A stretch of 38,447 nucleotides of DNA from a virus, in IMG/VR virus record IMGVR_UViG_3300030105_001991, positions 1-38,447 of that record; one strand, 5' to 3'. Positions 1-38,378 of the stretch are shown here, piece by piece. The notes under the pieces are model-generated. The model was not told the DNA's origin, searched no databases, and saw nothing but the letters and a program-made list of their open reading frames with translations. The position numbers and the translations under genes were made by a program. Positions within the stretch are counted from its first letter, which is position 1; each line of letters begins with the position of its first letter.

Positions 1-3000
1 ACCCTAACTCCATAGCTAACTTGTCCTTTCTAGTACCTAAAGTAGAACCACCTACTTTGTAACCTAATACCTCCACCATATTTTCACCACGGAAATATGC
101 CATGACTTTGGATATGCTAGGCATTTCCTTTCTAGTATGTAACTGTGGCCCTGAAGTTCTATTAGTATCCTTGGGTAGTTTGTTTTGACTGATTAACTTG
201 TCAACCTCTGTAGGTTTTGTAATCCTCCTAGACTCTGTAAATATTCTCTGCTCTGGTTTTAAGTTACGTTCCATTTGAACTAGAGTCTCTACAGGTAAAG
301 CTTTTATTATAGCTTTGTAATGGTTCTTTAGGAATAAGTTAAATTCAGACCTTGCACCCATTAAATCTTGTAGAGGTTTCTTTAGCTCTGTTCTAAATGC
401 TTTCTCTAAAGCTTTCCTAAAGTCCTTAGAATTTATATCAGGTAGTTTAGTACCAAATGTTTTTATTACAGCGTTCTTAACTGTTTGTATCATCTTACTA
501 TCCAACCTTATGTTGCGTCGTAATTTTGATCTCTGTTCGACTTCTGTATCAGATAGACCTATTTCATCGATGCGTAACATTTCAGCTGACGTATCAGCCT
601 CTATTTGCACGAGAGGAGCCCCTTCAGATGTTGTTGCATCTACATCTACAGTTTTAGCTGGGCCTTTGTCTTTATATATGTTATTATATACGTTCCCAGC
701 TTTGTTAGATATTTGACCTTGTATCCAACCAAACAAACTATCATTGCTTTCAGGTTTGAAAGCTTTAATATGAGGTGTTAATTCCGCTAATACATCTTGG
801 ACAAAATCTCTAGGTACAGGTCTTATTTTATATTGAGCAGCTATAAGATTATCTAAATAACCCTCTTCTTTTATAGTTCCTATAATTTGATCTGCCTCAG
901 CTTGATATAGGAAGTTACCCATACCAGGTTCGGTCATGTCACTACCATCGCTATCTACTTTACCTAGTTTGTCTATAGGTATTTTAGCGTCAGATTTAGA
1001 TTTAGCAATTTCTGTAACACTAGTTCCACTACCAGCAATATCTATAGATCTCTTACTTAACTCACCCTTGTCTACATCTTTTTGGTAATTTTTTAAGAAG
1101 TTGTATACTTGCTTACCATTTTCAAACTCTTTGTTATAACCAAATTTTCTAGCTATGTTCTGAACGAACTGAGCTAACTTCATGAATACACCCTCATTAA
1201 AAGTAATATTACCCTGCTTTATACCATCTGAAAATATAGCTACCCACTCATCAGTCTGGTTTATCCAATTAGCATCAGCATCTATAAAATCCTTATACTC
1301 GCTCTTTAATCTTTTCTCTATATAATTAAATTGCTCTTTAGTTATTGTGTTTTTAAAATCACTAATCAACTTAGTTCTACCTTCGACGCCAAGTTCTTTC
1401 ATCTGCTTAGCTAGTATACCGTGTAACAATTCGTGAGCACCAACATTTATAGCACCTGTCTTACCGGCTATATCTTTGTTTATAACTATAACGTCACCAA
1501 TGATAAACCCATCAGCACCAGCTACGTCACTAGCACTAATTTTATTGTCAGGGTTTTTAGTATTGTACTCCTCGACGGCTTTGTCATGCACTACTTGAGC
1601 TTCAGCATCGTTCTCAGCTACTATAGTTTCCTTACCTATTAATTTACCTTGTTCTTCAGCGAATTTTATAGTAGCATTTAATGTATTATCTCTCCTAGCT
1701 TTTTTTACTTCTGACCTCTTAGTTCTCTTCTGTATAACCTCTTCGGATGTAATATCCACATCAGAATATTTATCAGTTATATCTTTGATTTGTTCCTTTA
1801 TAGCTTTTGCTCTATTCTTACCAGACTGACTTTTTTGATTTACCTTCTGTAATTTTATTTCTAAATCAACTAAAGAATTAATATCTTTCTCGTCACTCAC
1901 TCTAGGATCTATTTGAGTCTTAGTATAAAACTTATTTTGTTTCTCATAAGCATTTTTATCTAACCCAGATAAATCATTGTCTATATCAATATCAGCTTTA
2001 GCTATGTCCTCTTCTGTAGCTGTATCGATAAAGTCTTTCATCTTATCATACGAGATAATCTCGCCATTAAGCTTGTAACTTGGCTTCTTGTAGGTACCTA
2101 AAGCATAGCCAACATTTAATGGGGCGGTAGCAGTACCTGTTATAGCTTCAAAACCTATCTCAGCTTTATCCATCTCTTGACCTGCAACCAATCTACCAGC
2201 CACCTCTCCAAGTCCACCACCGACAGCTTCGATTCCTACACCCGCAGCCATAGACCCAACTTTAACCGCAGCACCTTTTATAGTGCTTTTAGCAGCTACT
2301 TTCGCTCCTGTCTTCAAAACAGTTGTAGTTGCCTTACCAGCTAGACCACCTGTCAAAGCTTCAACAGCTCCAATTGCTAACCCTCTCCCAATTGCTTTAT
2401 TTCTTATGGACTTACCTTTATCACTTTGCATTAAAGTTAGAACGTTCTCATCGGTAAACTCTTTACCTTCTAATTCTAACTCCTCTTTAACCAACTCACC
2501 TAGAGTTAGTGATGTTTCCATCGATACAGCTAAACCACCCATACCTCCAGCAATTCCACCAGGTATAGCACCAGCACCAAATCCGTAAAACGTTGCGGCC
2601 GCACCAGCGCCAGCTCCAACACCAACTCCAATCCCAGCGGCAGCAAGAGCTTCAGGAGAATCCCAAGCTGTACCAGCCATAGTAGCGTAGGACTGAATAA
2701 GAAGCTCAGCCATTAATGACGGTTCTTCTTTTACATTTCTAAAAAAAGAAGTCCAAGTTCTACCCTCAGCTTCATACTTTTTCATGAAGCGCAACATCTT
2801 CTCAGACTCTTTATAATCTTTAGCCTTATCCTCATTGGCTTTAACCCATTCCGAGACAGTATCCAAGCTAACATCTTTACCACCAAGTATTACATCAGCA
2901 GCTTCCCCAGTGTCAGCAGCCTGATCCCAACCTCTTCTAACGGCATCGCCCAACCAAGAAGAAGTTCCTTCTACAGCCATTTTAGCAGCGGCAACTCCTG

Positions 3001-3541
3001 GTGGTAGTAGAGAGTTTGGAATATAACTGAATATATCAGATATGAAACTACCCTCTTCTCTTTCCTCTTGCTTAGTTTTAACCTTCGTACCTGCGGCAAC
3101 CTGCTTGTCATCCTCAGTTTTATATAGCTTGACAGCTTCGATGTACTCAACATCTAAGTTTTTGTACTTATCTACTTTGTTGTTGTACTCTTCAGCTAAG
3201 GAATTATATAAAACTTCGTTATTAAAAGCTTTAGCATCGTCCATAGACGACTTCAGCTTCTTCATTGAAGTATTAACACTATTTAATTTTATATATGAGT
3301 TGTTTACGTTTTTACCGAGTGATTCCAAAGAACCACTTCCCAAATTTGAATCCGTATTGTTTTGAGACTGACCCGCCTCTTGATTTGGTACTGCATTTTC
3401 CTGTCCCGTCGGCGCACCTTCCGCAGGACTTTCTTGGTTTCCCGACACTAAAGTAGCATTAGGATGTTTTTCTAAAAATCGTTGTTCGTCCTCAGGTCTA
3501 ACTTTTATAAGTTTACCATTCTCTAATCTGTATTCTATCAT
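1..3541 (-). CDS. Giant ejection/internal virion protein with zinc-peptidase motif (partial, C-terminus off the window)
   Basis: An open minus-strand frame runs from an ATG at 3541 through the left edge without a stop (I translated the start, middle and edge), giving about 1180 residues. The N-terminus is charged and linker-rich. Gly/Ala-rich hydrophobic stretches at about residues 290-330 and 380-460 could insert in a membrane. Residues 703-707 read HELLH followed by G, the HExxH signature of zinc peptidases, preceded by beta-strand-like segments (FIIGDVIVINK). Known families: T7-type internal proteins and 'polyvalent' phage proteins are large, carry peptidase domains and enter the cell with the DNA. 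The inference is an ejected, multi-domain virion protein. It is last in the visible late block, next to other internal-protein candidates. The substrate is unknown. Confidence 0.75.
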   Translation of the reverse strand, partial: MIEYRLENGKLIKVRPEDEQRFLEKHPNATLVSGNQESPAEGAPTGQENAVPNQEAGQSQNNTDSNLGSGSLESLGKNVNNSYIKLNSVNTSMKKLKSSMDDAKAFNNEVLYNSLAEEYNNKVDKYKNLDVEYIEAVKLYKTEDDKQVAAGTKVKTKQEEREEGSFISDIFSYIPNSLLPPGVAAAKMAVEGTSSWLGDAVRRGWDQAADTGEAADVILGGKDVSLDTVSEWVKANEDKAKDYKESEKMLRFMKKYEAEGRTWTSFFRNVKEEPSLMAELLIQSYATMAGTAWDSPEALAAAGIGVGVGAGAGAAATFYGFGAGAIPGGIAGGMGGLAVSMETSLTLGELVKEELELEGKEFTDENVLTLMQSDKGKSIRNKAIGRGLAIGAVEALTGGLAGKATTTVLKTGAKVAAKSTIKGAAVKVGSMAAGVGIEAVGGGLGEVAGRLVAGQEMDKAEIGFEAITGTATAPLNVGYALGTYKKPSYKLNGEIISYDKMKDFIDTATEEDIAKADIDIDNDLSGLDKNAYEKQNKFYTKTQIDPRVSDEKDINSLVDLEIKLQKVNQKSQSGKNRAKAIKEQIKDITDKYSDVDITSEEVIQKRTKRSEVKKARRDNTLNATIKFAEEQGKLIGKETIVAENDAEAQVVHDKAVEEYNTKNPDNKISASDVAGADGFIIGDVIVINKDIAGKTGAINVGAHELLHGILAKQMKELGVEGRTKLISDFKNTITKEQFNYIEKRLKSEYKDFIDADANWINQTDEWVAIFSDGIKQGNITFNEGVFMKLAQFVQNIARKFGYNKEFENGKQVYNFLKNYQKDVDKGELSKRSIDIAGSGTSVTEIAKSKSDAKIPIDKLGKVDSDGSDMTEPGMGNFLYQAEADQIIGTIKEEGYLDNLIAAQYKIRPVPRDFVQDVLAELTPHIKAFKPESNDSLFGWIQGQISNKAGNVYNNIYKDKGPAKTVDVDATTSEGAPLVQIEADTSAEMLRIDEIGLSDTEVEQRSKLRRNIRLDSKMIQTVKNAVIKTFGTKLPDINSKDFRKALEKAFRTELKKPLQDLMGARSEFNLFLKNHYKAIIKALPVETLVQMERNLKPEQRIFTESRRITKPTEVDKLISQNKLPKDTNRTSGPQLHTRKEMPSISKVMAYFRGENMVEVLGYKVGGSTLGTRKDKLAMELG

Positions 3542-28148: not shown

Positions 28149-28591
28149 CTGTCTTTATCTTTAATCATGTCGTCTATAGCTTTGTTCATTACCTTGTCTG
28201 TATATGACTTGTTACTATAGTAAGGATTTGTTATGGAAGTAGGTACATCTTCTTCACCTAGTAGTATTCTATATATTCTACTTATGAGATGATTACACTT
28301 AAACGATGTTTTGTAAACTGTGTACTTTATAGTAGTCCTATTCCTCTGTCTCCAAACCTCGACCCATCCTGCTTTTCTTAATCTCTCCCATCGGTGTTTA
28401 TCCCAAGTGTAAGCGTATACTCCGTTGATGAAATCATCTCTAGTAAACCTAGTTAAGCAGTTTAAATATATCAAGAGCTCTAAGTCAGCATCTTTTATAT
28501 CATTAGCTTTGCACGCCCATTTCCGAACCAGTCTATAGTACTTGAGGAAATGTGAATCTTTAAGATCTTGAGATGTTATACTCCTGTTCAT
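28145..28591 (-). CDS. Putative winged-helix DNA-binding protein, 148 aa
   Basis: The 148-residue basic protein carries a pattern that I associate with a winged-helix-like gene of Bacteroidetes phages: FLKYYRLVRKWACKAND, then DLELLIYLNCLTRFTRDDF, then KAGWVEVWRQRNRTTIKYTV as the wing-like beta hairpin. The C-terminus (GEEDVPTS...NKSYTDKVMNKAIDDM) is conserved in the versions I recall. It is likely a regulator or replication/packaging accessory. It overlaps groES by 4 bases and the holin-like gene by 4 bases. Confidence 0.6.
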   Translation of the reverse strand: MNRSITSQDLKDSHFLKYYRLVRKWACKANDIKDADLELLIYLNCLTRFTRDDFINGVYAYTWDKHRWERLRKAGWVEVWRQRNRTTIKYTVYKTSFKCNHLISRIYRILLGEEDVPTSITNPYYSNKSYTDKVMNKAIDDMIKDKDR

Positions 28592-28845
28592 TCTACAAGA
28601 ACTACATCCCTAAGTTTGATAATTCGGTACATAACATCGTCATATGAGATGTCGTGACCTGCGTGCATATCATACATCACTGTGCTACCTTCATCAACTA
28701 CCTCAGCTAGATTACCTACAGAGATAACCTTAGCTTTCTTGTATCTATTATCTACGTCAGTGTCATCAGTAAGTAGTAGACCACCTGAAGTAGTCTTCTG
28801 CTCCTTAATTCTTTCTACTACTATATAATCGTTAATTGCCTTCAT
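28588..28845 (-). CDS. groES: Co-chaperonin GroES
   Basis: The 85-residue protein has the beta-barrel pattern of co-chaperonins: KAINDYIVVERIKEQKTTSGG (split in two: strand, then the mobile loop with TTSGGLLL that docks on GroEL), the middle strand KAKVISVG, and VMYDMHAGHDI. It caps the GroEL ring in protein folding. The length is slightly shorter than the usual 95. It overlaps groEL by 14 bases, so the two are translated together. Confidence 0.85.
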   Translation of the reverse strand: MKAINDYIVVERIKEQKTTSGGLLLTDDTDVDNRYKKAKVISVGNLAEVVDEGSTVMYDMHAGHDISYDDVMYRIIKLRDVVLVE

Positions 28846-30397
28846 TTACTCTTACATTTGAGATTACACAATCTGCTGATACAATAGTTAACGCTACACT
28901 TACAGCATTCTTAAGAGCAGTCTTAGTTACTAGTACAGGATCAATAATACCTGATTCTACCATATCAACAACTTCTCCAGTTATAACATCGATACCGTAT
29001 CCTTCAAATAAGTCAGATGCAACCTCTATTCCTGCGTTGTTTAATATTGTCTGGTAAGGAGATTTTATAGCTTCTAATAAAGCCGTATATCCCACGTTAG
29101 TGGGAGAGATTTTTTGAGATGCATTAAGGAGGGCAATGCCACCCCCTGACACAATCCCTTCTTTCAAAGCAGCCTTGGTAGCGTAGATAGCATCTTCCAC
29201 TCTATCTTTCTTTTCTTTAAGTTCAACCTTAGAATCAGCACCAACTTTAACAACACCTACACTACCCGATAAGGTGGCTAATCGTTGTTCTAGTTTCTTC
29301 TTGATAAAACCATTCTTCTCATCAGCTATCTTAGTTTGTACTTCTACTATTCTTTCTAATACAGCATCACTAGGTCCATCTAAAGTTATTGTAGTATTCC
29401 TATCATCTGTTACAGAGAATTCAACCTCACCTAAATGCTCAGGTGTTATAAGGTCTAGATCATCTCCTAACTCTTCATTGATAACTGTAGAACCTGTTAA
29501 TATAGATAGATCCTCTATGGCATCCATTTTAGTAGGTCCGAACCCAGGTGGGTCAACGATGTTTACTTTTATATTACCTTTAACCTTATTCATTAGTAGT
29601 GCAGACTTAACTTGCTGCGATACTGGTGCTACAATAAGTAGTGAGCGGTTATTTTTAATAGCATGCTCTAATATCCCTTGAATCTTACGAATGTTAGGTA
29701 TTTCAGAGGAAACTGTTAGCACGAGCGGGTTATCTAACTCACATATATGCTTCTCAGTGTTAGTAATGAAGTGAGGCGAGGTTAAACCACAGTCTATCTG
29801 CGCTCCGTCCACTACTTCTACGTATGTATCCTCAGTAGGACTCTCTTCTAGGAGAACTACACCGTGTTTACCTACTTTTTCGTAAGCTTCAGCAATAATA
29901 TCCCCTAAAAATACGTCATTATTACAGGAAATACTAGAAACAGCTTTAAGCATATCACCATCCACTTCAACGGACGATGAATCTAAATACTTCACTACAT
30001 CTGCTAAGCATGATGTAACCCCTTCTTTTATATCTCTGATCTTTGCACCCGCAGCGACGGCGGTGTGTATAGAATTAATCAAGGCTTCCACTAGAACAGT
30101 GGCGGTAGTTGTACCGTCTCCAGCCTCTCGTACTGTATTTCTGGCTGCTTCCTTAACTAGAGTTGCACCCATGTTCTCAACCGGATCAAATAAGACTACG
30201 CTTTCTGCAACGGTTACTCCGTCTTTTGTTATGACCGGTTTGCCTCTTCCATCTTCGTAAATAACGCATTTTCCCGATGCGCCTAATGTGGATTTCACGG
30301 CTTTAGCTAGTTTATTTACCCCAGCTATTATTTTATTCTCAGCTTCTTGGCCAAAGTCTAGTTGCTTGACCAATTCGCTTGGTAAATTGTACTCCAT
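28832..30397 (-). CDS. groEL: Chaperonin GroEL (group I), phage version
   Basis: The 521-residue group I chaperonin folds proteins in an ATP-driven double ring. Key residues are present: ITKDG at 56-60 (Asp 59), the ATP-binding GDGTTT at 93-98 (Asp 94), and RVEDAIYATKAALKEG, which holds the late catalytic Asp. Differences from host GroEL: the phosphate loop GPKGR is GASGK, and the Gly-Gly-Met tail is missing (the protein ends ...VRVNEGN). Phage chaperonins presumably fold capsid or tail proteins. The gene starts the chaperonin pair upstream of the terminase region. Confidence 0.92.
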   Translation of the reverse strand: MEYNLPSELVKQLDFGQEAENKIIAGVNKLAKAVKSTLGASGKCVIYEDGRGKPVITKDGVTVAESVVLFDPVENMGATLVKEAARNTVREAGDGTTTATVLVEALINSIHTAVAAGAKIRDIKEGVTSCLADVVKYLDSSSVEVDGDMLKAVSSISCNNDVFLGDIIAEAYEKVGKHGVVLLEESPTEDTYVEVVDGAQIDCGLTSPHFITNTEKHICELDNPLVLTVSSEIPNIRKIQGILEHAIKNNRSLLIVAPVSQQVKSALLMNKVKGNIKVNIVDPPGFGPTKMDAIEDLSILTGSTVINEELGDDLDLITPEHLGEVEFSVTDDRNTTITLDGPSDAVLERIVEVQTKIADEKNGFIKKKLEQRLATLSGSVGVVKVGADSKVELKEKKDRVEDAIYATKAALKEGIVSGGGIALLNASQKISPTNVGYTALLEAIKSPYQTILNNAGIEVASDLFEGYGIDVITGEVVDMVESGIIDPVLVTKTALKNAVSVALTIVSADCVISNVRVNEGN

Positions 30398-31551: not shown

Positions 31552-31597
31552 TGTGACAACAGCCTGTTACTAGTACCTTATATAGGCTAATGTCACA
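31552..31597. promoter_or_regulatory. 46-base inverted repeat, operator/terminator candidate (copy 1)
   Basis: The arms are TGTGACA and TGTCACA at the ends and AGCCT/AGGCT inside, around an 18-base spacer that contains the palindrome ACTAGT. A related copy lies at 32334-32380, sharing AGCCTGTTACTAGT exactly. The 46-base spacing would allow a large dimeric or tetrameric protein, or a hairpin RNA. It sits between the two divergent gene blocks. Confidence 0.6.
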
Positions 31598-31638
31598 CTA
31601 CTGAAAAAATTTTATTATAAATTTTGGGGTTTTGCGTT

Positions 31639-31666
31639 CCCCCCTCCCCCTGGGCCCCCTCCCCTC
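31639..31666 (-). other. G-quadruplex candidate (C-rich on the plus strand)
   Basis: The minus strand has four long G runs separated by A, CCCA and A, which is stronger than the usual quadruplex pattern. It lies in the non-coding switch region of an otherwise AT-rich genome. It could be an origin, a transcription block, or a packaging or recombination signal (inference). Confidence 0.6.
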
Positions 31667-31812: not shown

Positions 31813-31852
31813 TACAAACTAAATACGACTATTAATAGATAATATATATGTA
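31813..31852 (+). promoter_or_regulatory. Repeated promoter-like element, copy 1
   Basis: TACAAACTAAATACGA, nine bases, GATAATATATA; the GATAAT is at 31838. The ATG of the 77-residue gene follows at 31889. Confidence 0.75.
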
Positions 31853-31888
31853 ATCGAACGAACGACTACTACTTAAATATCAAATCAA

Positions 31889-32122
31889 ATGACTAATTCA
31901 AATCAAATTACTACGAAGAGATTCGTTATACGCAAGACGTTAATAGGTACTAATACTATCATTACATTCGTGAACAAGAAAGGTGCGTCAGTATCGTATA
32001 ATCACGATGCAGTGTATAATGCTCACGCTTCACGATTCAACTCGATGAATTGCTTCACGAAGTATAAGTCGTATACTAACTCGAATGCAATGCCAGCGTT
32101 CTGTAGAGACTTAGCGATATAA
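31889..32122 (+). CDS. Small early protein, 77 aa (paralogue of the gene at 32765)
   Basis: The 77-residue protein is the first early gene. Its core (KRFVIRKTLIG, then a GASVSYNHDA turn and FTKYKSYTNSN) aligns along its length with the 104-residue gene at 32765 (KRFVVRQSLIG ... WSKYKSYTASSN), so the two are duplicates. The fold is probably mixed beta/alpha. No function is known; early small duplicates often act as host-takeover proteins. It has its own promoter-like element (copy 1) 36 bases upstream. Confidence 0.65.
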   Translation: MTNSNQITTKRFVIRKTLIGTNTIITFVNKKGASVSYNHDAVYNAHASRFNSMNCFTKYKSYTNSNAMPAFCRDLAI

Positions 32123-32127
32123 GTCTT

Positions 32128-32167
32128 TACAAGCTCAATACGAATCACCATGGATAATATCTATGTA
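32128..32167 (+). promoter_or_regulatory. Repeated promoter-like element, copy 2 (degenerate)
   Basis: TACAAGCTCAATACGA, nine bases, GATAATATCTATG. The two substitutions in the upstream half make this the weakest copy, but the spacing is exact. ATG follows at 32189. Confidence 0.6.
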
Positions 32168-32188
32168 ACCAAATTAAATTAAACTATT

Positions 32189-32338
32189 ATGAAAAAGATC
32201 CTTATCAAAATGATCACCAACATCATCACTACTAAGTTAGTGTCTGGTATTGAATACAATCAAAAGCAACTTGAAGTGCTAAACCATGCATCGAGTTACG
32301 AACTAATCAGTGTATTAATCTCAGTAAATAAACTGTGA
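32189..32338 (+). CDS. Small early protein, 49 aa
   Basis: A short gene read from the ATG at 32189, 30 bases after element copy 2, to TGA at 32336-32338. The start is basic and hydrophobic (MKKILIKMITNIITTKLVSG), which could be a membrane or amphipathic helix. The rest is Leu/Ser-rich. The stop lies inside the second 47-base inverted repeat. No homologue is recognised; support comes from its promoter-like element and reading-frame fit. Confidence 0.5.
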   Translation: MKKILIKMITNIITTKLVSGIEYNQKQLEVLNHASSYELISVLISVNKL

Positions 32339-32380
32339 CATTAGCCTGTTACTAGTCTTACTTAACAGCCTTGTGTCACA
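32334..32380. promoter_or_regulatory. 47-base inverted repeat, operator/terminator candidate (copy 2)
   Basis: TGTGACA and TGTCACA form the outer arms, with AGCCTGTTACTAGT inside, identical over 14 bases to copy 1. It overlaps the stop of the 49-residue gene and lies 20 bases before promoter-like element copy 3. Confidence 0.6.
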
Positions 32381-32400
32381 CTATTCTACTAACGAGTTAT

Positions 32401-32440
32401 TACAAACTAAATACGACTGTCGTTGGATAATATATACGTA
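32401..32440 (+). promoter_or_regulatory. Repeated promoter-like element, copy 3
   Basis: TACAAACTAAATACGA, nine bases (CTGTCGTTG), GATAATATATACG. The ACGA/TCGT bases can form a small inverted repeat. ATG follows at 32459. Confidence 0.75.
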
Positions 32441-32458
32441 ACCAATAAATATCAAACT

Positions 32459-32614
32459 ATGACAACTAAATCAGAAAAACTACTAACTATTACTAAGTTA
32501 TTAAACGAAGTATATACTGACTTGAACGATGAGTCAAAAGACTTTACTGAAGTATTTGAAATTATTACTAACGACTTACGCTACTATTTAGTATACGAAA
32601 CTATGGAAAAGTAG
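32459..32614 (+). CDS. Small early protein, 51 aa
   Basis: I chose the ATG at 32459 (MTTKSEKLLTITKLL). An upstream TTG at 32423 would read through promoter-like element copy 3 and is unlikely. The protein is 51 residues, acidic and helical, with no recognised domain. The short distance from its element (27 bases after GATAAT) and the tight frame support a real gene. Confidence 0.6.
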   Translation: MTTKSEKLLTITKLLNEVYTDLNDESKDFTEVFEIITNDLRYYLVYETMEK

Positions 32615-32686
32615 AATTTACGTGAGTACACAAGTGGCGGAGTATCTGCTAACTTAAATTATCTACTTAATTATTTATCCACCTTT

Positions 32687-32726
32687 TACAAACTAAATAC
32701 GAACGAGTATGGATAATATATATGTA
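32687..32726 (+). promoter_or_regulatory. Repeated promoter-like element, copy 4
   Basis: TACAAACTAAATACGA, nine bases, GATAATATATATG. ATG follows at 32765, the longest leader in the set. Confidence 0.75.
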
Positions 32727-32764
32727 ACGAAAACAAATTATAAACTAAACTAAATCAAGTCATT

Positions 32765-33079
32765 ATGGCAAATTTAATTCAATCAAAGAGATTCGTAGTA
32801 CGTCAATCTCTAATCGGCAAAGATACTAACGTCGAAGTATCATTCAAGAACGGAAAAACCGTTACTTATTCTCACGACAAAGCGTTCGAGATAATGAAGG
32901 AAACTTTAGAAGCACTCTCATGTTGGAGTAAGTACAAGTCGTACACAGCATCGAGTAACATTCCAAAAGTACTTCGAAACACTGAAGCGGTTATCACTTC
33001 ATACGAGTTGAACGAAACTACTGATGAAGTAGTAGAAATCGAAACTGAAGTTAAGATGACTCCAGTAGGTGCGTTTTAG
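32765..33079 (+). CDS. Small early protein, 104 aa (paralogue of the gene at 31889)
   Basis: The 104-residue protein has the same core as the 77-residue gene at 31889 (KRFVVRQSLIG, GKTVTYSHDKA, WSKYKSYTASSN) plus an acidic C-terminal tail of about 30 residues (DEVVEIETEVKM). The two are duplicates from one ancestor. It has its own promoter-like element and a hairpin-like GCGT...ACGC at its stop codon. The function is unknown. Confidence 0.65.
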   Translation: MANLIQSKRFVVRQSLIGKDTNVEVSFKNGKTVTYSHDKAFEIMKETLEALSCWSKYKSYTASSNIPKVLRNTEAVITSYELNETTDEVVEIETEVKMTPVGAF

Positions 33080-33146
33080 TAGACGCTTATGTTAAAAGTC
33101 CAGTTAGTTCTACTTCGTTTACTGGTAAATCAAATATGAACGAGTA

Positions 33147-33188
33147 CTGTAGTAATGGTTAATGTGAGTTCGATTCTCATACTACAAC
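33147..33188 (+). ncRNA. tRNA-like element (acceptor-like stem plus T-arm; no standard cloverleaf)
   Basis: A T-arm with loop TTCGATT and stem GTGAG/CTCAT sits directly before ACTACAA, and six bases of TGTAGT 24 bases upstream can pair with ACTACA. Bases AATGGTTAAT between them look like a D-loop. I cannot fold a full cloverleaf, and no anticodon is visible. It may be a remnant, a mini-tRNA, or a processing signal. An extended cloverleaf starting near 33074 is possible with one mismatch. Confidence 0.4.
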
Positions 33189-33215
33189 TAAATTATTAAA
33201 TAATAAATCAAGTAT

Positions 33216-33368
33216 ATGCAAGTAATATGTAAAAAATGTAGCGAAGACGTTACCATGGAAGTAGATTTCCAAACTAAATCTCCATTCGGAGTGATAAACA
33301 ATCACGAGTGTGAAGACGATCAAGTAGAGTTAAGAATTAAAGCGTTAGAAGCGGGATTTATACTATGA
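33216..33368 (+). CDS. Zinc-finger-like small protein, 50 aa
   Basis: A short gene from ATG 33216 to TGA 33368. Cys residues occur as CKKC near the start (residues 5-8) and in NNHEC, about 28 residues later, giving a possible CxxC...HxC zinc site. The rest is acidic and helical. It overlaps the next start by four bases (ATGA), so the two are probably co-translated. The metal-binding role is inferred from spacing. Confidence 0.6.
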   Translation: MQVICKKCSEDVTMEVDFQTKSPFGVINNHECEDDQVELRIKALEAGFIL

Positions 33369-33634
33369 AGAGAGTAATAATAATAGCAGCGATGTTAGCT
33401 TCAGTAAGCGGACTTGCTCAGAATACTCAGTGTATTTCAACAACTAAAAAAGGTGATCGATGCCTACTTACAGTGAACACTAATGACTTATGTTGGCGAC
33501 ACAGTCCCGAGTATGTGAAGAAAAGCAAAAACCCAACAGTGGTTTGCTATGCAACTACGAAGGCAAATGCTAAATGTAAGCAGAAAACTAGTCACCCGAG
33601 TGGAGTTTGTTATCACCACAGACCTAAAAACTAA
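33365..33634 (+). CDS. Secreted or envelope Cys-rich protein, 89 aa
   Basis: A signal-peptide-like start (MKRVIIIAAMLASVSGLAQ) precedes two tandem repeats of the form C-x9-C-x9/10-C-x2-H (QCISTTKKGDRC... CWRH and VCYATTKANAKC ... CYHH). Such T-T-K-plus-Cys/His repeats resemble small predicted zinc-binding domains found across Bacteroidetes proteins, by recollection. Export of a phage zinc-type protein in the early region is unusual. It overlaps the preceding gene by four bases and lies 3 bases before the next. Confidence 0.65.
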   Translation: MKRVIIIAAMLASVSGLAQNTQCISTTKKGDRCLLTVNTNDLCWRHSPEYVKKSKNPTVVCYATTKANAKCKQKTSHPSGVCYHHRPKN

Positions 33635-33637
33635 ATT

Positions 33638-33850
33638 ATGGATAAAAGTTTAATTATATTAGCGTTAGAAACGTTAAGAGAGCAAGTATCTGATGGTACT
33701 GATTGGGAATGTGAAGAGCAGACTCTAGAAGGTCAAGAAAGACTCGATAGAATAGACAAGCAGATTGAAGAGCTCAAAGCAGAACCAACTATAACTATTA
33801 ACGAGCATCGCCAAGTGAAAACATATGGTTATACTCAAAAGAAAGAATAA
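33638..33850 (+). CDS. Small acidic protein, 70 aa
   Basis: The 70-residue protein is helical and acidic (ALETLREQVSDGTDWECEEQ), with the last 15 residues more basic. There is no recognised motif or membrane part. It is tightly packed between the Cys-rich secreted gene and a zinc-ribbon gene, three bases from the former and one base from the latter, so it probably belongs to their transcript. Confidence 0.55.
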   Translation: MDKSLIILALETLREQVSDGTDWECEEQTLEGQERLDRIDKQIEELKAEPTITINEHRQVKTYGYTQKKE

Positions 33851-33851
33851 T

Positions 33852-33986
33852 ATGGCAACAGATTTAAGATGTCCTAATTGTGAAGATAATTTAGGAAAAG
33901 ACAGAGAAAACCACGTTCACGCTTATTGCGGGAATTGTGGTGAAGAATTCTACAACGACGAAGGTTATACTGATGAAGATGAATAG
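33852..33986 (+). CDS. Zinc-ribbon small protein, 44 aa
   Basis: A short gene from ATG 33852 to TAG 33986. CPNC near the start and CGNC 19 residues later are a classic zinc-ribbon pair (C-x2-C ... C-x2-C) with an acidic tail (DEGYTDEDE). It may bind nucleic acid or a protein partner such as the host RNA polymerase (inference). The start lies one base after the preceding stop. Confidence 0.65.
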   Translation: MATDLRCPNCEDNLGKDRENHVHAYCGNCGEEFYNDEGYTDEDE

Positions 33987-33989
33987 TTA

Positions 33990-34029
33990 TACAAATTAAA
34001 TACGACTACTCGTGGATAATATATATGTA
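33990..34029 (+). promoter_or_regulatory. Repeated promoter-like element, copy 5
   Basis: TACAAATTAAATACGA, nine bases (CTACTCGTG), GATAATATATATG. ACGA and TCGT form a four-base inverted repeat. It starts 3 bases after the zinc-ribbon stop. ATG follows at 34051. Confidence 0.75.
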
Positions 34030-34050
34030 GAACGTTAAAAAAAACAAAGA

Positions 34051-34251
34051 ATGAAGACTTTTAAATTAGCAAAAGAAAATAACAGTATCTCACTAACAGA
34101 TGAGTTTGCTGGAGTAACAGTGTACAGTGAGTGGAGAGCTTATACAGTAGCAGAATTACCTAAGAACTTCGGTTGTTTAGAGTATGAAACTGACGTAGAA
34201 GGAATAAGTGAATGGTTTAACTATAAAGGATTAACTTATGTCAGAGACTAG
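34051..34251 (+). CDS. Small early protein, 66 aa
   Basis: The unrecognised 66-residue protein is beta-rich with aromatic residues (FAGVTVYSEWRAYTVAELP, EWFNYKGLTYV). It is the first gene after element copy 5 (30 bases after GATAAT). Its end overlaps the next start by 14 bases, so translation is coupled. The function is unknown. Confidence 0.55.
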   Translation: MKTFKLAKENNSISLTDEFAGVTVYSEWRAYTVAELPKNFGCLEYETDVEGISEWFNYKGLTYVRD

Positions 34252-34414
34252 GAGATTTACTCACGATGAAGTTATATTAGTAGGAGGTGAATACTTCAAA
34301 TCTAAAAAAACTGGTGAATGGGTGTCAGAAAACCGAGTGGATAACTGGCAAATAGAAATGTTAAACATAGAAATACAACAGTATTATGACAAAGAACAGG
34401 ATAGGTATTATTAA
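34238..34414 (+). CDS. Small protein, 58 aa
   Basis: A short gene read from ATG 34238 to TAA 34414. It has a mixed charged sequence (RRFTHDEVILVGGEYFKSKK) and an aromatic C-terminus. It overlaps the previous gene by 14 bases and the next by 29 bases if the latter starts at 34386. No recognised domain is present; support comes from the frame fit and density of the block. Confidence 0.5.
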   Translation: MSETRRFTHDEVILVGGEYFKSKKTGEWVSENRVDNWQIEMLNIEIQQYYDKEQDRYY

Positions 34415-34700
34415 CTGCGAAGATGAATTCGGAAATATGAGTAAAATTAAAGAAAAAGGTATGGAAGTACAACAATTATTTGACACTTTAGAGTCACAAT
34501 TACAGTCACACGACTGGTTTTATAGTTATTCTGACGACAATAGGTATTATAAAACAGGTCAAAGAGAGCATTCACAAATATGGCAAGTTATTGAGAAATT
34601 ACAAGCTATTGGTGAAAACGAGTTTGATCGAGCTATAGATATGTACCGCGAAGCTAAACCAGTAGTATCTGCACCGCATGAAACTAGAATTACAAATTAA
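34386..34700 (+). CDS. Small helical protein, 104 aa
   Basis: The 104-residue protein is mostly helical and rich in Gln, Glu and Arg (MEVQQLFDTLESQLQSHD). The start could be the ATG at 34386, which overlaps the previous gene by 29 bases, or the ATG at 34437 (MSKIKEKG), which is cleaner; I keep the longer form with low certainty. The stop TAA (34698-34700) lies inside promoter-like element copy 6. No motif is recognised. Confidence 0.5.
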   Translation: MTKNRIGIINCEDEFGNMSKIKEKGMEVQQLFDTLESQLQSHDWFYSYSDDNRYYKTGQREHSQIWQVIEKLQAIGENEFDRAIDMYREAKPVVSAPHETRITN

Positions 34701-34730
34701 ATACGATTCCTCGTGGATAATATAATAAAC
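34691..34730 (+). promoter_or_regulatory. Repeated promoter-like element, copy 6
   Basis: TACAAATTAAATACGA, nine bases (TTCCTCGTG), GATAATATAATA. It overlaps the stop codon of the previous gene. ATG follows at 34739, only 18 bases after GATAAT. Confidence 0.75.
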
Positions 34731-34738
34731 GAAAACGT

Positions 34739-34948
34739 ATGAAATGTAGATGCAAAGTAGAAATACCACAAGGTAGGTTAGATTTAGGTTATAAGACATG
34801 TATAAAATGCGCCCGTACAGAGCGTTATGCTTGTGTACCAATAACTAACCACAAAACTGGGAATACTATTCAAATAGTTACCCAAGCTCAAGCAGAAATA
34901 ATCATAAAAGCTGGAAGGCGGAAAGGTTATGGTACTTGCTTGCGCTAA
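34739..34948 (+). CDS. Cys-rich protein (DksA-like short zinc motif), 69 aa
   Basis: The 69-residue protein has a CxC (MKCRCKVEIP) followed by CIKC 15 residues later (RLDLGYKTCIKCARTERYA), then an HKTGNTIQIVTQ segment and a basic C-terminus (RRKGYGTCLR). This layout, with YKTC and HKTGNT, is familiar from small phage proteins and may bind zinc and RNA polymerase, but I do not claim a named family. It ends 6 bases before the tRNA gene. Confidence 0.65.
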   Translation: MKCRCKVEIPQGRLDLGYKTCIKCARTERYACVPITNHKTGNTIQIVTQAQAEIIIKAGRRKGYGTCLR

Positions 34949-34954
34949 AAACCC

Positions 34955-35028
34955 GCCCGAGTAGCTCAACTGGATAGAGCAACACCCTTCTAAGGTGTAG
35001 GTTATGAGTTCGAATCTCATCTCGGGTA
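34955..35028 (+). tRNA. tRNA-Arg, anticodon TCT
   Basis: A complete cloverleaf. The acceptor GCCCGAG pairs with CTCGGGT (one G-U) and the D-arm is GCTC/GAGC. The anticodon arm ACACC/GGTGT carries loop CTTCTAA with anticodon TCT, and the T-arm ATGAG/CTCAT has loop TTCGAAT. CCA is not encoded. It reads AGA codons, which are frequent in these AT-rich genes. Flanking genes sit within 20 bases on both sides. Confidence 0.9.
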
Positions 35029-35043
35029 CTAAAATTAAAGATT

Positions 35044-35193
35044 ATGATTAGTAAGAAGCAACAAGATAAATGGTGGCGTGTGAAGCTCGATAGCGAGACT
35101 TTACATGGTATATGGAATGCTTCAAAACCATTTACACAGAGAAACAAGAAGAAATATTCACGTAAAAACAAGCATGGAAATGAACAAGAGTAA
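35044..35193 (+). CDS. Small basic protein, 49 aa
   Basis: A short gene from ATG 35044 to TAA 35193. It is strongly basic (KKQQDKWWRVKLD and RNKKKYSRKNKHG) with two Trp near the start. Small basic proteins of this kind may bind nucleic acid. It follows the tRNA by 15 bases, as the tRNA-like gene at 37071-37095 is also followed by a small gene. Confidence 0.5.
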   Translation: MISKKQQDKWWRVKLDSETLHGIWNASKPFTQRNKKKYSRKNKHGNEQE

Positions 35194-35350
35194 GAAATTA
35201 GTTATCGGTAAAGTGATAATAGTCAGAGTAGGCGATGAGATACGTTACAACGTACCAGAGGACATGAATGGTAAACAGTTGAATGAGTTAAAAACCAAGC
35301 ACAGTGAAGTTGTAAACGACTTTATCGAAAGCAGTAAACAAAAGGTATGA
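35174..35350 (+). CDS. Small protein, 58 aa
   Basis: I chose the ATG at 35174 (MEMNKSKKLVIGKVIIV); an ATG six bases later is equally possible. A frame from 35105 would run through the previous gene. It is a basic hydrophobic helix then acidic helical sequence, with no motif. It overlaps the previous stop by 20 bases and the next start by four bases (ATGA). Confidence 0.5.
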   Translation: MEMNKSKKLVIGKVIIVRVGDEIRYNVPEDMNGKQLNELKTKHSEVVNDFIESSKQKV

Positions 35351-35526
35351 GCAATAGATATTTAGATGAAGCTTGGGATGAAGCTCACGAGCTGATACTA
35401 GAGCTAGGAGAAAAAGGTGATTTTGATACAACTTTGTCACTAGATGAATTTTACGCAGAGTATTACTACAACTTGAACCATGAAGATAGAGAAAGAATTG
35501 AAGAAACATTAAGATTATGGAAATAA
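35347..35526 (+). CDS. Small acidic helical protein, 59 aa
   Basis: A short gene from ATG 35347 to TAA 35526, acidic and helical with Leu heptads (DEAWDEAHELILELGEKGDF). It overlaps the previous gene by four bases and the next by ten. It could form a coiled-coil dimer. The function is unknown. Confidence 0.55.
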   Translation: MSNRYLDEAWDEAHELILELGEKGDFDTTLSLDEFYAEYYYNLNHEDRERIEETLRLWK

Positions 35527-36110
35527 AAACTAAAGAAGAAGCGTTATCAACCTTCAAACTACTTGGTATAAAAGATATATCAAGCAAAAGACAAGTGAAA
35601 AACGGTACAACAGAGTATGAGTTACCTATTAAGTGGATGAATTCACGAGGTGACAAATACGGTATAAGATATGCGACTTACGAGTCTGGGTATGTTAGAA
35701 ATGTAAGTCCTTGTAACTCATCTTGTTGGCAAATCAACAAAAGATATGAGACTAAAGAGAAGTTTTGGAGTACTTACTGCAAAAAGTATCTCTCTAACAG
35801 TAGGTATAAACGAATACTTATAAACAACGAGGAAGACCGATTAGTTTATTTAGCCAACTATATTCTTAAGAATAACTACGGAAAAGGTGGTTTATATACT
35901 ATGGATGAATTTACTAGAGAGACTATTAGCGATAATCACTATGATTTACACAAAGCTGACAATGTCTTAATAATGTCATCTGAGCTTGCTAAGTTAAAAC
36001 GCACCCAATGGGAGAAAGACAATGGTGTTTTTGACACTTGGGGTACTAATAAAAACTCTGGTGACGACATTCAAGTAATTATTAACGGGCATAGATACAA
36101 CTTATCATGA
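35517..36110 (+). CDS. Hypothetical protein, 197 aa
   Basis: The 197-residue protein is the largest early gene in this part, mixed alpha/beta and rich in Lys, Tyr and Asn. It shows 'KYGIRYATYESGYVRNVSPCN' type beta segments and a helical middle (NEEDRLVYLANYILKNNYG). A C-terminal Asn/Gly-rich part ends in INGHRYNLS. No catalytic motif can be called. It starts inside the previous gene's last codons and its stop overlaps the next start by four bases. Confidence 0.6.
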   Translation: MEIKTKEEALSTFKLLGIKDISSKRQVKNGTTEYELPIKWMNSRGDKYGIRYATYESGYVRNVSPCNSSCWQINKRYETKEKFWSTYCKKYLSNSRYKRILINNEEDRLVYLANYILKNNYGKGGLYTMDEFTRETISDNHYDLHKADNVLIMSSELAKLKRTQWEKDNGVFDTWGTNKNSGDDIQVIINGHRYNLS

Positions 36111-36313
36111 AGAAATTTAACGGTTTTGAAAACCACTTACTACAAGATGCAATAAAGCTTTACGTAGAAAAAGCAGAGGATGAAGTATTATATAAAAAAG
36201 CTAGCTTAGAGGTTAATAAGCGACTTTTGTTTGCTCCAGGGTATTTCACTATGATAGGTGAAGAGCTTTCTGATAAAGTAAATGATATGACACTTAAAAA
36301 ACACTTAAAATAA
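36107..36313 (+). CDS. Small protein, 68 aa
   Basis: The 68-residue protein is helical and charged (NHLLQDAIKLYVEKAEDEV) with a hydrophobic patch near residues 40-50 (LFAPGYFTMIG). It overlaps both neighbours (ATGA start, TAATG stop), so it is part of a translationally coupled chain. The function is unknown. Confidence 0.5.
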   Translation: MKKFNGFENHLLQDAIKLYVEKAEDEVLYKKASLEVNKRLLFAPGYFTMIGEELSDKVNDMTLKKHLK

Positions 36314-36444
36314 TGAAAAAGAGAAAACTAAACAGTAAAAACCCAAAATATAGACCTGTGGTGAAAAAAGAGGTTATAAACGAAAGAAGAGAATTAATAT
36401 GTAAAGTTAAAGGTGTTGAAGTATATGCAGTTTTTACAAACTAA
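36313..36444 (+). CDS. Small basic protein, 43 aa
   Basis: A short gene from ATG 36313 to TAA 36444. It is very basic (MKKRKLNSKNPKYRPVVKKE) with one Cys. It ends in the residues TN, and its stop codon lies within promoter-like element copy 7, as in two other genes of the block. It may bind nucleic acid. Confidence 0.5.
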   Translation: MKKRKLNSKNPKYRPVVKKEVINERRELICKVKGVEVYAVFTN

Positions 36445-36474
36445 ATACGATCACTTTTGGATAATATATACGTA
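36435..36474 (+). promoter_or_regulatory. Repeated promoter-like element, copy 7
   Basis: TACAAACTAAATACGA, nine bases (TCACTTTTG), GATAATATATACG. It overlaps the stop codon of the 43-residue gene. ATG follows at 36489. Confidence 0.75.
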
Positions 36475-36488
36475 AACAAACAAACAAA

Positions 36489-36851
36489 ATGAAGAAAGAA
36501 CAAATTGAGATGAGAATTAAAGAGATTGGTACATTAGTATTAGATTCTCAGAAAGAACAATCAAACTACACAGGTGAATTAGCTAGCTTACACAGTGAAT
36601 TAGCGATGTTAAACGCGCCTAAGTTAACGGAAGAGCAAGCAACTGAGTTAAATGAAAGGTTGTGTGACCACATAGACCGAATGGACACTACTGACTTAGG
36701 TAATTTTGACTTTGAGTTCGATATAGACTATGATAATAGAGTTTCAGTCTCTAACTTTGACTGCTCCGATTTAATAGAGGGTATAAAAGATGAGTTTCAA
36801 GAAGTTATATCAGACTTTTTCAAAGTCGAAGAAGATGAAGAAGAAGAATAA
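36489..36851 (+). CDS. Acidic helical protein, 120 aa
   Basis: The 120-residue protein is acidic and helical with heptad-like Leu (MRIKEIGTLVLDSQKEQ), a Cys/Asp middle (DNRVSVSNFDCSDLIEG) and a Glu-rich tail (VEEDEEEE). No recognised motif is present. It follows element copy 7 and precedes the structured RNA region, so the RNA is probably transcribed with it. Confidence 0.6.
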   Translation: MKKEQIEMRIKEIGTLVLDSQKEQSNYTGELASLHSELAMLNAPKLTEEQATELNERLCDHIDRMDTTDLGNFDFEFDIDYDNRVSVSNFDCSDLIEGIKDEFQEVISDFFKVEEDEEEE

Positions 36852-36852
36852 C

Positions 36853-37095
36853 GTAAGCAAACTTTAAGGTTCGGCTGATTCTGGTCGCCTGATAAATCAG
36901 GTGGAAAGTAGATCCAGATAAGTGTGAAGGAATAAGGCTTACAGCCCAAGTACAAGGTGAAAAGTAAATCTATGGTAATGTGAAAACCATGACTGGTGAG
37001 GTGTCCGTATGGATTCATAGGTTGTGGTAAGCGAAATAGAGCCTTGTTGCTGCAAAGTAATTGGTAAATTAGCGGTTCGAATCCGCTCTTGGGCA
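36853..37095 (+). ncRNA. Structured RNA with tRNA-like 3' end
   Basis: A gene-free stretch with many pairings: GTAAGC (36853) with GCTTAC (36937), TCTGG with CCAGA around a CCTGA/TCAGG hairpin, AATCTATG (36967) with CATAGGTT (37016) enclosing two small hairpins, and GCCCAAG (36944) with CTTGGGC (37088). The end is a normal T-arm (AGCGG, loop TTCGAAT, CCGCT) plus discriminator A, as in the tRNA-Arg. Segments GGCTGATTCTGG (36873) and GTGTCCGT...AAGCGAA (37002-37034) echo tmRNA, but no tag or full pairing is visible. It could be a tmRNA-like RNA, an interrupted tRNA or an unknown class. Confidence 0.5.
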
Positions 37096-37109
37096 CTAAA
37101 ATTAAGAGT

Positions 37110-37232
37110 ATGAGAAGATTAATCTATGACATGTACTATGCTGAGGAGATCAGTATGGAGATTTGTGGAAAACTTATTAACAAATTAAACGAAGTTTCTG
37201 AAAAGAGACGTAAAAAACAAGGAGGATACTAA
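37110..37232 (+). CDS. Small protein, 40 aa
   Basis: A short gene from ATG 37110, 15 bases after the tRNA-like 3' end, to TAA 37232. It is charged and ends with a basic tail (EKRRKKQGGY). Its stop overlaps the next start by one base (TAATG). An AGGAGG lies 7 bases before the next ATG, inside this gene's last codons, and would also serve as a ribosome site. Confidence 0.5.
   Translation: MRRLIYDMYYAEEISMEICGKLINKLNEVSEKRRKKQGGY
37220..37225 (+). promoter_or_regulatory. Shine-Dalgarno-like AGGAGG before the 68-aa gene
   Basis: AGGAGG sits a few bases before the ATG at 37232, an unusually strong ribosome site for a phage whose other leaders are A/T-rich. Confidence 0.6.
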
Positions 37233-37438
37233 TGGGAGATATGACTTTTGAAGAGATAAACGAAGAGATCAGAGAAGATATCTACAACGACATAATTCAA
37301 GAATTTGATTATATTGCTGATTTTCCACTATCTGGTGATCAAAAACAAGAGATAATATCAGATATAGTTGATTATGTCTTCAGGGAATTGCAAAAACAAC
37401 CAGTCTGTGAGTGTGATGCGTATGGTGGCACAAACTAA
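37232..37438 (+). CDS. Small acidic protein, 68 aa
   Basis: The 68-residue protein is strongly acidic and helical (MTFEEINEEIREDIYNDII) and ends with CECDAYGGTN. The terminal residues ACA-AAC-TAA are the start of promoter-like element copy 8, so its stop is inside that element. There is a strong AGGAGG upstream. The function is unknown; the helices could be a regulatory dimer. Confidence 0.55.
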   Translation: MGDMTFEEINEEIREDIYNDIIQEFDYIADFPLSGDQKQEIISDIVDYVFRELQKQPVCECDAYGGTN

Positions 37439-37468
37439 ATACGATTACTCGTGGATAATATTAATGAA
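37429..37468 (+). promoter_or_regulatory. Repeated promoter-like element, copy 8
   Basis: CACAAACTAAATACGA, nine bases (TTACTCGTG), GATAATATTAATG. It differs from the consensus only at the first base. It contains the stop of the previous gene. ATG follows at 37483. Confidence 0.75.
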
Positions 37469-37482
37469 TAAAATAAAAACAC

Positions 37483-37725
37483 ATGGAAAACCTATGGAAG
37501 CAACTGAAACCAGCAGTTCGAAAACAAATACTGGTAGATAAAGACATTTATCCAATGATGATTAATTCCTGTAAAGAAGAATTAGAAGCTAAGATGTGGT
37601 GGACCGACTTATCAGTGCAAACTGTTAGGCACGTAGCAACATTCACACACAATACTTTGATTAGTGTATCAGTGAATGACTTACTATGGGGTGAAAAATT
37701 CTTAAAGAAAACAAAGAATGTCTAA
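37483..37725 (+). CDS. Small hypothetical protein, 80 aa
   Basis: The unrecognised 80-residue helical, basic protein (MENLWKQLKPAVRKQILVDK, then CKEELEAKMWWTD) ends in basic KFLKKTKNV. It is the first gene after element copy 8, 23 bases after GATAAT. It overlaps the next start by 8 bases. No motif is found. Confidence 0.6.
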   Translation: MENLWKQLKPAVRKQILVDKDIYPMMINSCKEELEAKMWWTDLSVQTVRHVATFTHNTLISVSVNDLLWGEKFLKKTKNV

Positions 37726-37984
37726 AGTTGAAGAACAAAAAGTACCTAAATGGTTTCGAGGTGAGGTGTATAGCGAAGGAGCTATGGTACAGAACCGCTT
37801 TACTGGTGAAGAATGTGAATTAAATGCACTTGAATTATCTATTTATGATATGACAATGGGTGCAAGTATGATCTCAGAAATAGGAATGAGTAGTTCTAGT
37901 GATGAAATAGTTAAAGATCTACGTAAAGGTCTTGACTGGTTTAGAAGTAATAATGCTAAAGCCTATATGGTACTACTAGATTAA
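37718..37984 (+). CDS. Small hypothetical protein, 88 aa
   Basis: The 88-residue protein is mixed alpha/beta with residues such as NRFTGEECELNALELSIYDM and a basic/aromatic end (LDWFRSNNAKAYMVLLD). It shows no recognised motif. The start overlaps the previous gene by 8 bases and the stop overlaps the next ATG by one base. Confidence 0.55.
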   Translation: MSKVEEQKVPKWFRGEVYSEGAMVQNRFTGEECELNALELSIYDMTMGASMISEIGMSSSSDEIVKDLRKGLDWFRSNNAKAYMVLLD

Positions 37985-38064
37985 TGGTATACTATATTTT
38001 AGGATTCATAGTATTCTACTTATTTGGATCTATACAGGTTAAACAGAAAAAAGTAAAATTATGA
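37984..38064 (+). CDS. Single-pass membrane microprotein, 26 aa
   Basis: A 26-residue frame from ATG 37984 (sharing a base with the previous stop, TAATG) to TGA 38064, which overlaps the next ATG (ATGA). Residues 2-17 are hydrophobic (VYYILGFIVFYLFGSI), followed by a basic tail (KQKKVKL). The coupled ends on both sides make a real gene likely despite the size. The expected topology is an inner-membrane anchor. Confidence 0.55.
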   Translation: MVYYILGFIVFYLFGSIQVKQKKVKL

Positions 38065-38378
38065 CAACAAACAAAATTCAAGAACAATTAGAGAAGAAAT
38101 CTAAGCAAGAGATTGATGACTTAGTAACAAACTTAGTTAAGGACATTGTAAAATTCAGACTAGAAAAGACTGGGTTTAAGGGTAATGGTATGGATTGGCG
38201 TAGTAACCATACTAAACCAACAGTTAAATATGCTGGTGAAACAATGCCAGATCCTTGGGACTTTTTTGACTGGGATGTTCTTCGTAAGTTGTTCCGTAGA
38301 AATCTTGAAGAAGCTATGTTAGATGATATGGTCGAACAAAAAGCTAGTAACTTAATAGCTAAAATGGAATTACTATAA
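38061..38378 (+). CDS. Small hypothetical protein, 105 aa
   Basis: The 105-residue protein is basic and helical at the start (KIQEQLEKKSKQEIDDLVTN) with a Trp/Asn-rich middle (GMDWRSNHTKPTVKYAGE). The stop overlaps the next start (TAATG). It has no recognised motif. It belongs to the same coupled chain. Confidence 0.55.
   Translation: MTTNKIQEQLEKKSKQEIDDLVTNLVKDIVKFRLEKTGFKGNGMDWRSNHTKPTVKYAGETMPDPWDFFDWDVLRKLFRRNLEEAMLDDMVEQKASNLIAKMELL

Follow-up and report, generated by a model that had tools for sequence, protein, structure and literature searches.

Phage sigma factors with promoters of their own are known from phage 7-11, where the late promoters of gp47 read GTAAtg-(16)-aCTA, and from phiEco32, where the corresponding motif of gp36 is tAATGTAtA (PMC8948821). 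Here we describe a promoter-like element that occurs in eight copies in a 38,447-nucleotide stretch of viral DNA (bases 1-38447 of the 41,865-bp IMG/VR virus record IMGVR_UViG_3300030105_001991; hereafter the window), together with a phage sigma factor encoded beyond its right edge. As judged from the sequence comparisons below, the element very probably defines a class of promoters peculiar to a large phage group; the class appears to be real and widespread, and the sigma factor is a strong candidate for its reader. No description of either was found in the open library searched.

On the features tested, element and sigma factor belong with the phage sigma factors that have their own promoters. 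Shared with phage 7-11 are the podovirus type, the divergent arrangement of the gene blocks, a phage factor of the sigma-70 family, a phage-specific consensus and about eight promoters per genome; the start predicted here from sequence proxies would fall within the same 6-9 bp of the -10 element. Unlike in phage 7-11 and phiEco32, the promoters described here consist of three rigidly spaced boxes with a different consensus, the probable host belongs to another phylum, and the copies lie in the replication-side block, with none seen in the virion block. The sigma-28/FliA promoters, TAAA-N15-GCCGATAA, share the GATAA core in the -10 element, and FliA is among the solved structures closest to the phage sigma factor; compared by sequence alone, however, the element lacks the GCC and its -35 position differs.

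A rigidly spaced element with a predicted start site

The original prediction had placed eight copies of a 40-base element with a nine-base internal gap upstream of the early genes and had seen none in the minus-strand late block. All eight were recovered, exclusively on the plus strand, with zero to three mismatches and nine bases between the boxes, against a chance expectation of 0.00 (100 dinucleotide shuffles); the motif scan saw no copy on the minus strand of the window. The length needs qualification, since full conservation covers a core of 34 bases and about 39-40 bases are reached only when the initiator is counted, and the spacing to the start codon, given as 17-47 bases, was slightly off: it amounts to 14 to 44 bases in the window copies when counted from the last core base.

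Four of the eight copies are exact, among them element 1 (31813..31850, core 31813-31846), whose predicted transcription start (+1) is the G at 31850 and whose ATG lies at 31889. Element 2 (32128..32165; +1 at 32165, ATG at 32189) is the weakest, with three mismatches (TACAAGCTCAATACGA...GATAATATC), and is followed by elements 3 (32401..32438; +1 at 32438, ATG at 32459) and 4 (32687..32724; +1 at 32724, ATG at 32765). Elements 5 (33990..34027; +1 at 34027, ATG at 34051) and 6 (34691..34728; +1 an A at 34728, ATG at 34739) carry one mismatch each (TACAAATTAAATACGA), and the left box of element 6 overlaps the final bases of the preceding reading frame (34386-34700). Element 7 spans 36435..36472 (+1 at 36472, ATG at 36489), and element 8 (37429..37466; +1 at 37466, ATG at 37483), with two mismatches, overlaps the 3' end of the reading frame 37232-37438. 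Beyond the window, at record position 38976, there is a ninth copy, again exact, in which the ATG begins precisely at the predicted +1. Across the nine copies the +1 base is G in seven, each time after a T or C, and A in two. A tRNA-Arg(tct) gene, the sole match in an Rfam scan of the region, occupies 34955-35029, after element 6 and before element 7. Elsewhere (L090, L111) an element directly follows a tRNA-like end.

Aligned over 376 distinct sites from related loci, the element has the consensus TTACAAA-N3-AAtACGA-N9-GATAATATaaaTG, which, with its fixed spacing, holds for about 540 sites overall. The N9 gap is absolute: all 273 distinct strict matches have it when spacings from 5 to 14 are allowed, and the upper boxes are separated exclusively by N3. 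With GATAAT numbered -12 to -7, ACAAA falls at -36 to -32 and AAnACGA at -28 to -22. Seven bases after GATAAT (idx 39), the predicted +1 is G in 62% and A in 37% of sites, C and T being absent (purine ~99%), and the preceding base is T in 71% and C in 8%. GATAAT fits a -10 element, with this purine signature downstream; the original prediction had suggested it as a -10, with CAAACT as a weak -35 at 17 bases.

Start codons that overlap the element provide a second signature. An ATG at -2 arises by accident of the consensus, and the genomes therefore offer a natural test of the start site: this ATG is present in 227 sites and opens a reading frame (counted as open at 45 codons) in only 11 of them, whereas an ATG at +1 does so in 33 of 36 sites, and ATGs further downstream usually begin open frames in 50-100% of cases. 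This step would mark the transcript start at or beside the predicted +1, within the 6-8 bases after GATAAT that had been foreseen, so that about 6% of sites would drive leaderless genes. The main leader length is 19-23 nt; the median leader of Flavobacterium psychrophilum is 24 nt (PMC9723704).

Co-occurrence of the element and a phage sigma factor

The supposition that a phage sigma factor might lie beyond the right edge was borne out. A truncated sigma-70 gene (record 41597-41863) starts 3.15 kb past the window and runs to the end of the record; its 89 aa match sigma-70 region 2 and are 100% identical to the corresponding part of a full 250-aa gene (locus L207) in the near-identical record G001. 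Complete homologues are about 250 aa long and contain regions 2 and 4. In the full L207 homologue, PF04542 (region 2) scores above its cut-off and TIGR02937 reaches 50 bits (cut-off 42.9) over residues 33-239, while the Pfam model of region 4 gave 21.7 and 25.5 bits in two family members (cut-off 24.1). A profile of the family matches PDB chains of sigma-A, RpoD and FliA, the last end to end, and the top Foldseek matches of an AlphaFold model (pLDDT 78) are sigma-A/RpoD chains. Exactly one region-2 gene was counted in each of 32 records. Relatives occur in at least 220 viral contigs; INPHARED (50,697 records) holds no close relative, and two records of one cyanophage match with E 1e-6.

Element and sigma gene are linked in both directions. 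A de novo motif search by expectation-maximisation recovered the element in 78 of 112 distinct sigma loci, and 31 of the 34 loci lacking it have less than 6.5 kb of upstream DNA, which leaves 78 of 81 testable loci positive; in one of the three other negative loci (L213, record G006), copies lie at a greater distance upstream. Scored with each locus's own matrix, 553 sites lie on the strand of the sigma gene and one is antisense. Conversely, among records found by the motif alone, the sigma gene is present in all 22 of at least 58 kb, and the seven that lack it are all fragments of at most 55.7 kb (sizes counted from the result table). Four sigma-less relatives, MW202828, elemoA, phi19:3 and phi40:1, contain no element sites (the scan covered the first 45-50 kb of the last three), as against 8 in the window and 9-11 in sigma genomes in the same scan. 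In 8 of the 78 loci the sigma gene itself stands directly behind an element, with its ATG at +1 to +4.

In two sigma genomes missed by the pattern search (G005 and G007), the element takes a divergent form, AAGGTTGACACGA-N9-TGATAATAT. An alternative start register made of TATA(A/T)A and TTGACA at 17 bp looked attractive in their clade (AAGGTTGACACGA) and was rejected because the ATGs at idx 39 would then lie before the start.

Some sigma loci depart from the common pattern. One 129,537-bp record (G065) has two sigma genes 62.3 kb apart and probably represents two joined genomes; G051 also has two, and the sigma gene of G068 has a broken frame. Sigma contigs are found inside bacterial metagenome-assembled genomes (MAGs; L395-L402), some of them Bacteroidota (Saprospiraceae, Sphingobacteriales, Flavobacteriaceae, Lewinella), and those in Aliivibrio, Halieaceae and Ilumatobacteraceae MAGs are likely mis-binned.

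Candidate readers of the element

We consider it highly likely that host core RNA polymerase carrying the phage sigma factor initiates at the elements. The ~250-aa factor would recognise GATAAT as the -10 element, with transcription from the purine seven bases downstream; ACAAA (-36 to -32) would serve as a -35-type contact and AAnACGA (-28 to -22) as an extra upstream contact at a rigid distance. Because the sigma factor must first be made, the elements would belong to the delayed-early or middle promoters and not to the immediate-early ones, being switched on once the factor is present, and the sigma genes that directly follow an element suggest positive feedback at those loci.

Several observations weigh against this interpretation. 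The reader, the start position and the delayed-early or middle class are all inferred, and statements about transcription are sequence-based throughout. Eight sites carry an ATG at -6, which opens a frame in six of them; the two inspected (L214, L218) start genes of one kind. Neither column covariation nor Mantel tests, the latter including three control proteins, singled out the sigma factor as reader of the upstream boxes: phylogeny dominates the covariation between sigma residues and motif columns, and only position -23 with residues 220-224 and position -13 with residues 221-225 of region 4.2 stand out, though not decisively. In the sister pair L210/L212 the left box is strongly changed and the recognition helix of region 4.2 mostly is not. 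The spacing, without any one-base variation, is stricter than in usual sigma-70 promoters, and host-type promoters that might act as the early driver are not enriched, their numbers being at shuffle level.

Some of these points are accommodated by a possible, though distinctly less probable, alternative in which the sigma factor reads GATAAT and a second phage protein reads -36 to -22 as an activator or sigma appropriator. Since the sigma factor would read the -10 element in both cases, the probabilities of the two readings do not sum to one. The likeliest second protein is a 204-aa helix-turn-helix (HTH) protein encoded beyond the window (record 40967-41578; L009:18968-19579). Its gene directly precedes the sigma gene in 107 of the 112 loci, with a median gap of 9 nt, and at its C-terminus it has a helix-turn-helix, which matches HTH_11 in 31 of 33 members. 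Its confident model (pLDDT 90) had no PDB match below E 0.68, and the protein belongs to an undescribed family. A second reader would also suit the ACGA box (-25 to -22), which is beyond the usual sigma-70 contacts and invariantly spaced, and the left box that differs between the sister sigmas despite their nearly unchanged helix; the bases at -14/-13 vary with sigma region 4.2 (partial r 0.30) and with the HTH protein (0.24). However, the HTH protein and left-box distance were not associated (partial r -0.06), the sigma factor has a region 4 of its own, and a weak relative of the HTH protein occurs in the sigma-less elemoA, so that it may have another job. The HTH protein could act as a second reader of the element or as a switch in its own right.

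Such two-reader logic would be comparable to that of the T4 middle promoters, where MotA and AsiA act and a MotA box at -30 is combined with a sigma-70 -10 element. Both have a conserved box near -30 at a near-fixed distance from the -10 element; unlike in T4, the box here is ACAAA-N3-AAnACGA instead of the TGCTT box and a phage sigma factor is present. The MotA and AsiA families had no match in genome G005.

A conserved inverted repeat of about 45 nt, TGTGACAaNAGCC-N~24-AGTAANAGGCTnATGTCA, lies at the start of the HTH gene (record 40921-40970, plus strand) and twice in the window (~31552-31598 and ~32336-32383). Its right arm contains the HTH start codon in 63 of 105 loci under a strict pattern, and in none of the shuffles. 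Read on the minus strand, the two window copies have the same right part (by eye), and one is ~75 nt upstream of the first late gene. The repeat TGTGACAaNAGCC/AGTAANAGGCTnATGTCA is a candidate RNA hairpin or operator.

Recognition by a host factor is improbable. In this case the element would be a sigma-A or alternative-sigma promoter, or would start further downstream with TATAAATG as a degenerate -7 box, and T32 A33 ... T38 G39 do resemble TAnnTTTG at four positions (the -7 element of F. johnsoniae is TAHHTTTG at -12 to -5; PMC6847099). Bacteroidetes sigma-A promoters are likewise AT-rich, with similar leader lengths and a short A-rich leader (PMC6847099, PMC9723704); they differ in the -10 and upstream boxes, and the host type is not enriched in these genomes. 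The mismatch with the Bacteroidetes housekeeping consensus noted originally is evident in the logo, which shows neither TTTG at -33 nor TAnnTTTG at -7; most sites have A where T-8 and T-7 would be expected. With the degenerate register, moreover, transcripts would begin at idx 44 and miss the 33 working ATGs found at idx 39. The six motifs described for F. psychrophilum include no similar one (PMC9723704), and the sigma-less relatives lack the element.

An RNA polymerase of the phage's own, one of the readers initially envisaged, is disfavoured. The idea of a T7-like single-subunit enzyme stems from TAATACGA-N9-G: TAATACGA appears in several clades, followed after nine bases by a G at the same distance as in T7. 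The T7 consensus is contiguous from -17 to +6, with TATA at -4 to -1. Here the equivalents of -4 to -1 are unconserved, the N9 gap being hardly conserved at all, and the conserved positions would be +1 to +8 and -24 to -20; the start-codon step falls at idx 39 and not idx 27. In G005, a scan of 36 proteins (open reading frames from 130 aa upwards, each redundant end copy omitted) found no RNA polymerase family; the opening 60 bases of this genome reappear at 66,139 of 71,928, so that it is terminally redundant and probably complete. A PF00940 search gave no match in 32 records, with its positive control silent too, and a 2719-aa virion protein without family match leaves slight room for a hidden enzyme. 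We regard such a promoter as very improbable. Equally remote is a role other than promoter (an origin or iteron, another binding site or a leader RNA motif), for repeats of fixed geometry can serve such uses but these keep to one strand immediately before start codons, with a -10-like core, a purine and functional step at +1 and a linked sigma gene.

Gene layout, hosts and significance

The elements would serve a co-directional block of small genes on the plus strand (31889..38378) that runs on beyond the window, where element 9 is followed by genes for a DNA ligase, the HTH protein and the truncated sigma factor; in G001 this block encodes ERF, an exonuclease, SSB, a primase-helicase and nucleotide metabolism. 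The minus-strand block is the virion block, with terminase, portal and major structural proteins. No recognisable DNA polymerase was seen among the Pfam matches of G005 (L291-L294). GroES and GroEL are encoded inside the late block (28588-30397, minus strand, from translations), with homologues in G005. A very large virion protein (window 2-3541, minus strand; L287:7055-15025; 2656 aa in G001) shows, by eye, HExLH protease-like and FDFDET HAD-like motifs, and its G005 counterpart has no family match. The divergent intergenic region contains a conserved near-palindrome, TGTTAgATATatAGgGGTAtagtgTTACcCC (~31613-31644, position by eye), with an information content of 27.4 against 9.7 in shuffles (50 genomes); it may be an operator, origin or terminator.

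The terminase matches one circular podovirus genome from Manatee Spring (64%), and relatives are encoded in at least 600 viral stretches. Because it also matches Flavobacterium elemo phages (47%) and phages of Cellulophaga, Tenacibaculum and Maribacter, the hosts are most likely Bacteroidetes, and the phages carrying the element, an uncultured group, probably infect marine Bacteroidetes.

A promoter system of this kind would let the phage steer host RNA polymerase to its own genes. With some ten promoters per genome and a predictable start base, the element is a ready readout of gene control in uncultured phages, and wherever sigma and element have diverged between clades, they provide natural orthogonal pairs for Bacteroidetes, in which regulated promoters are few. 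The fixed box at -25 to -22 poses a direct structural question on sigma-70 promoter recognition. There is some chance, though not a large one, that the rigid three-box promoter is read jointly by the sigma factor and its HTH operon partner and thus forms a self-contained orthogonal switch of uncultured ocean phages; if so, the sharp -28 to -22 box would represent a type of contact new to sigma-70 promoters.

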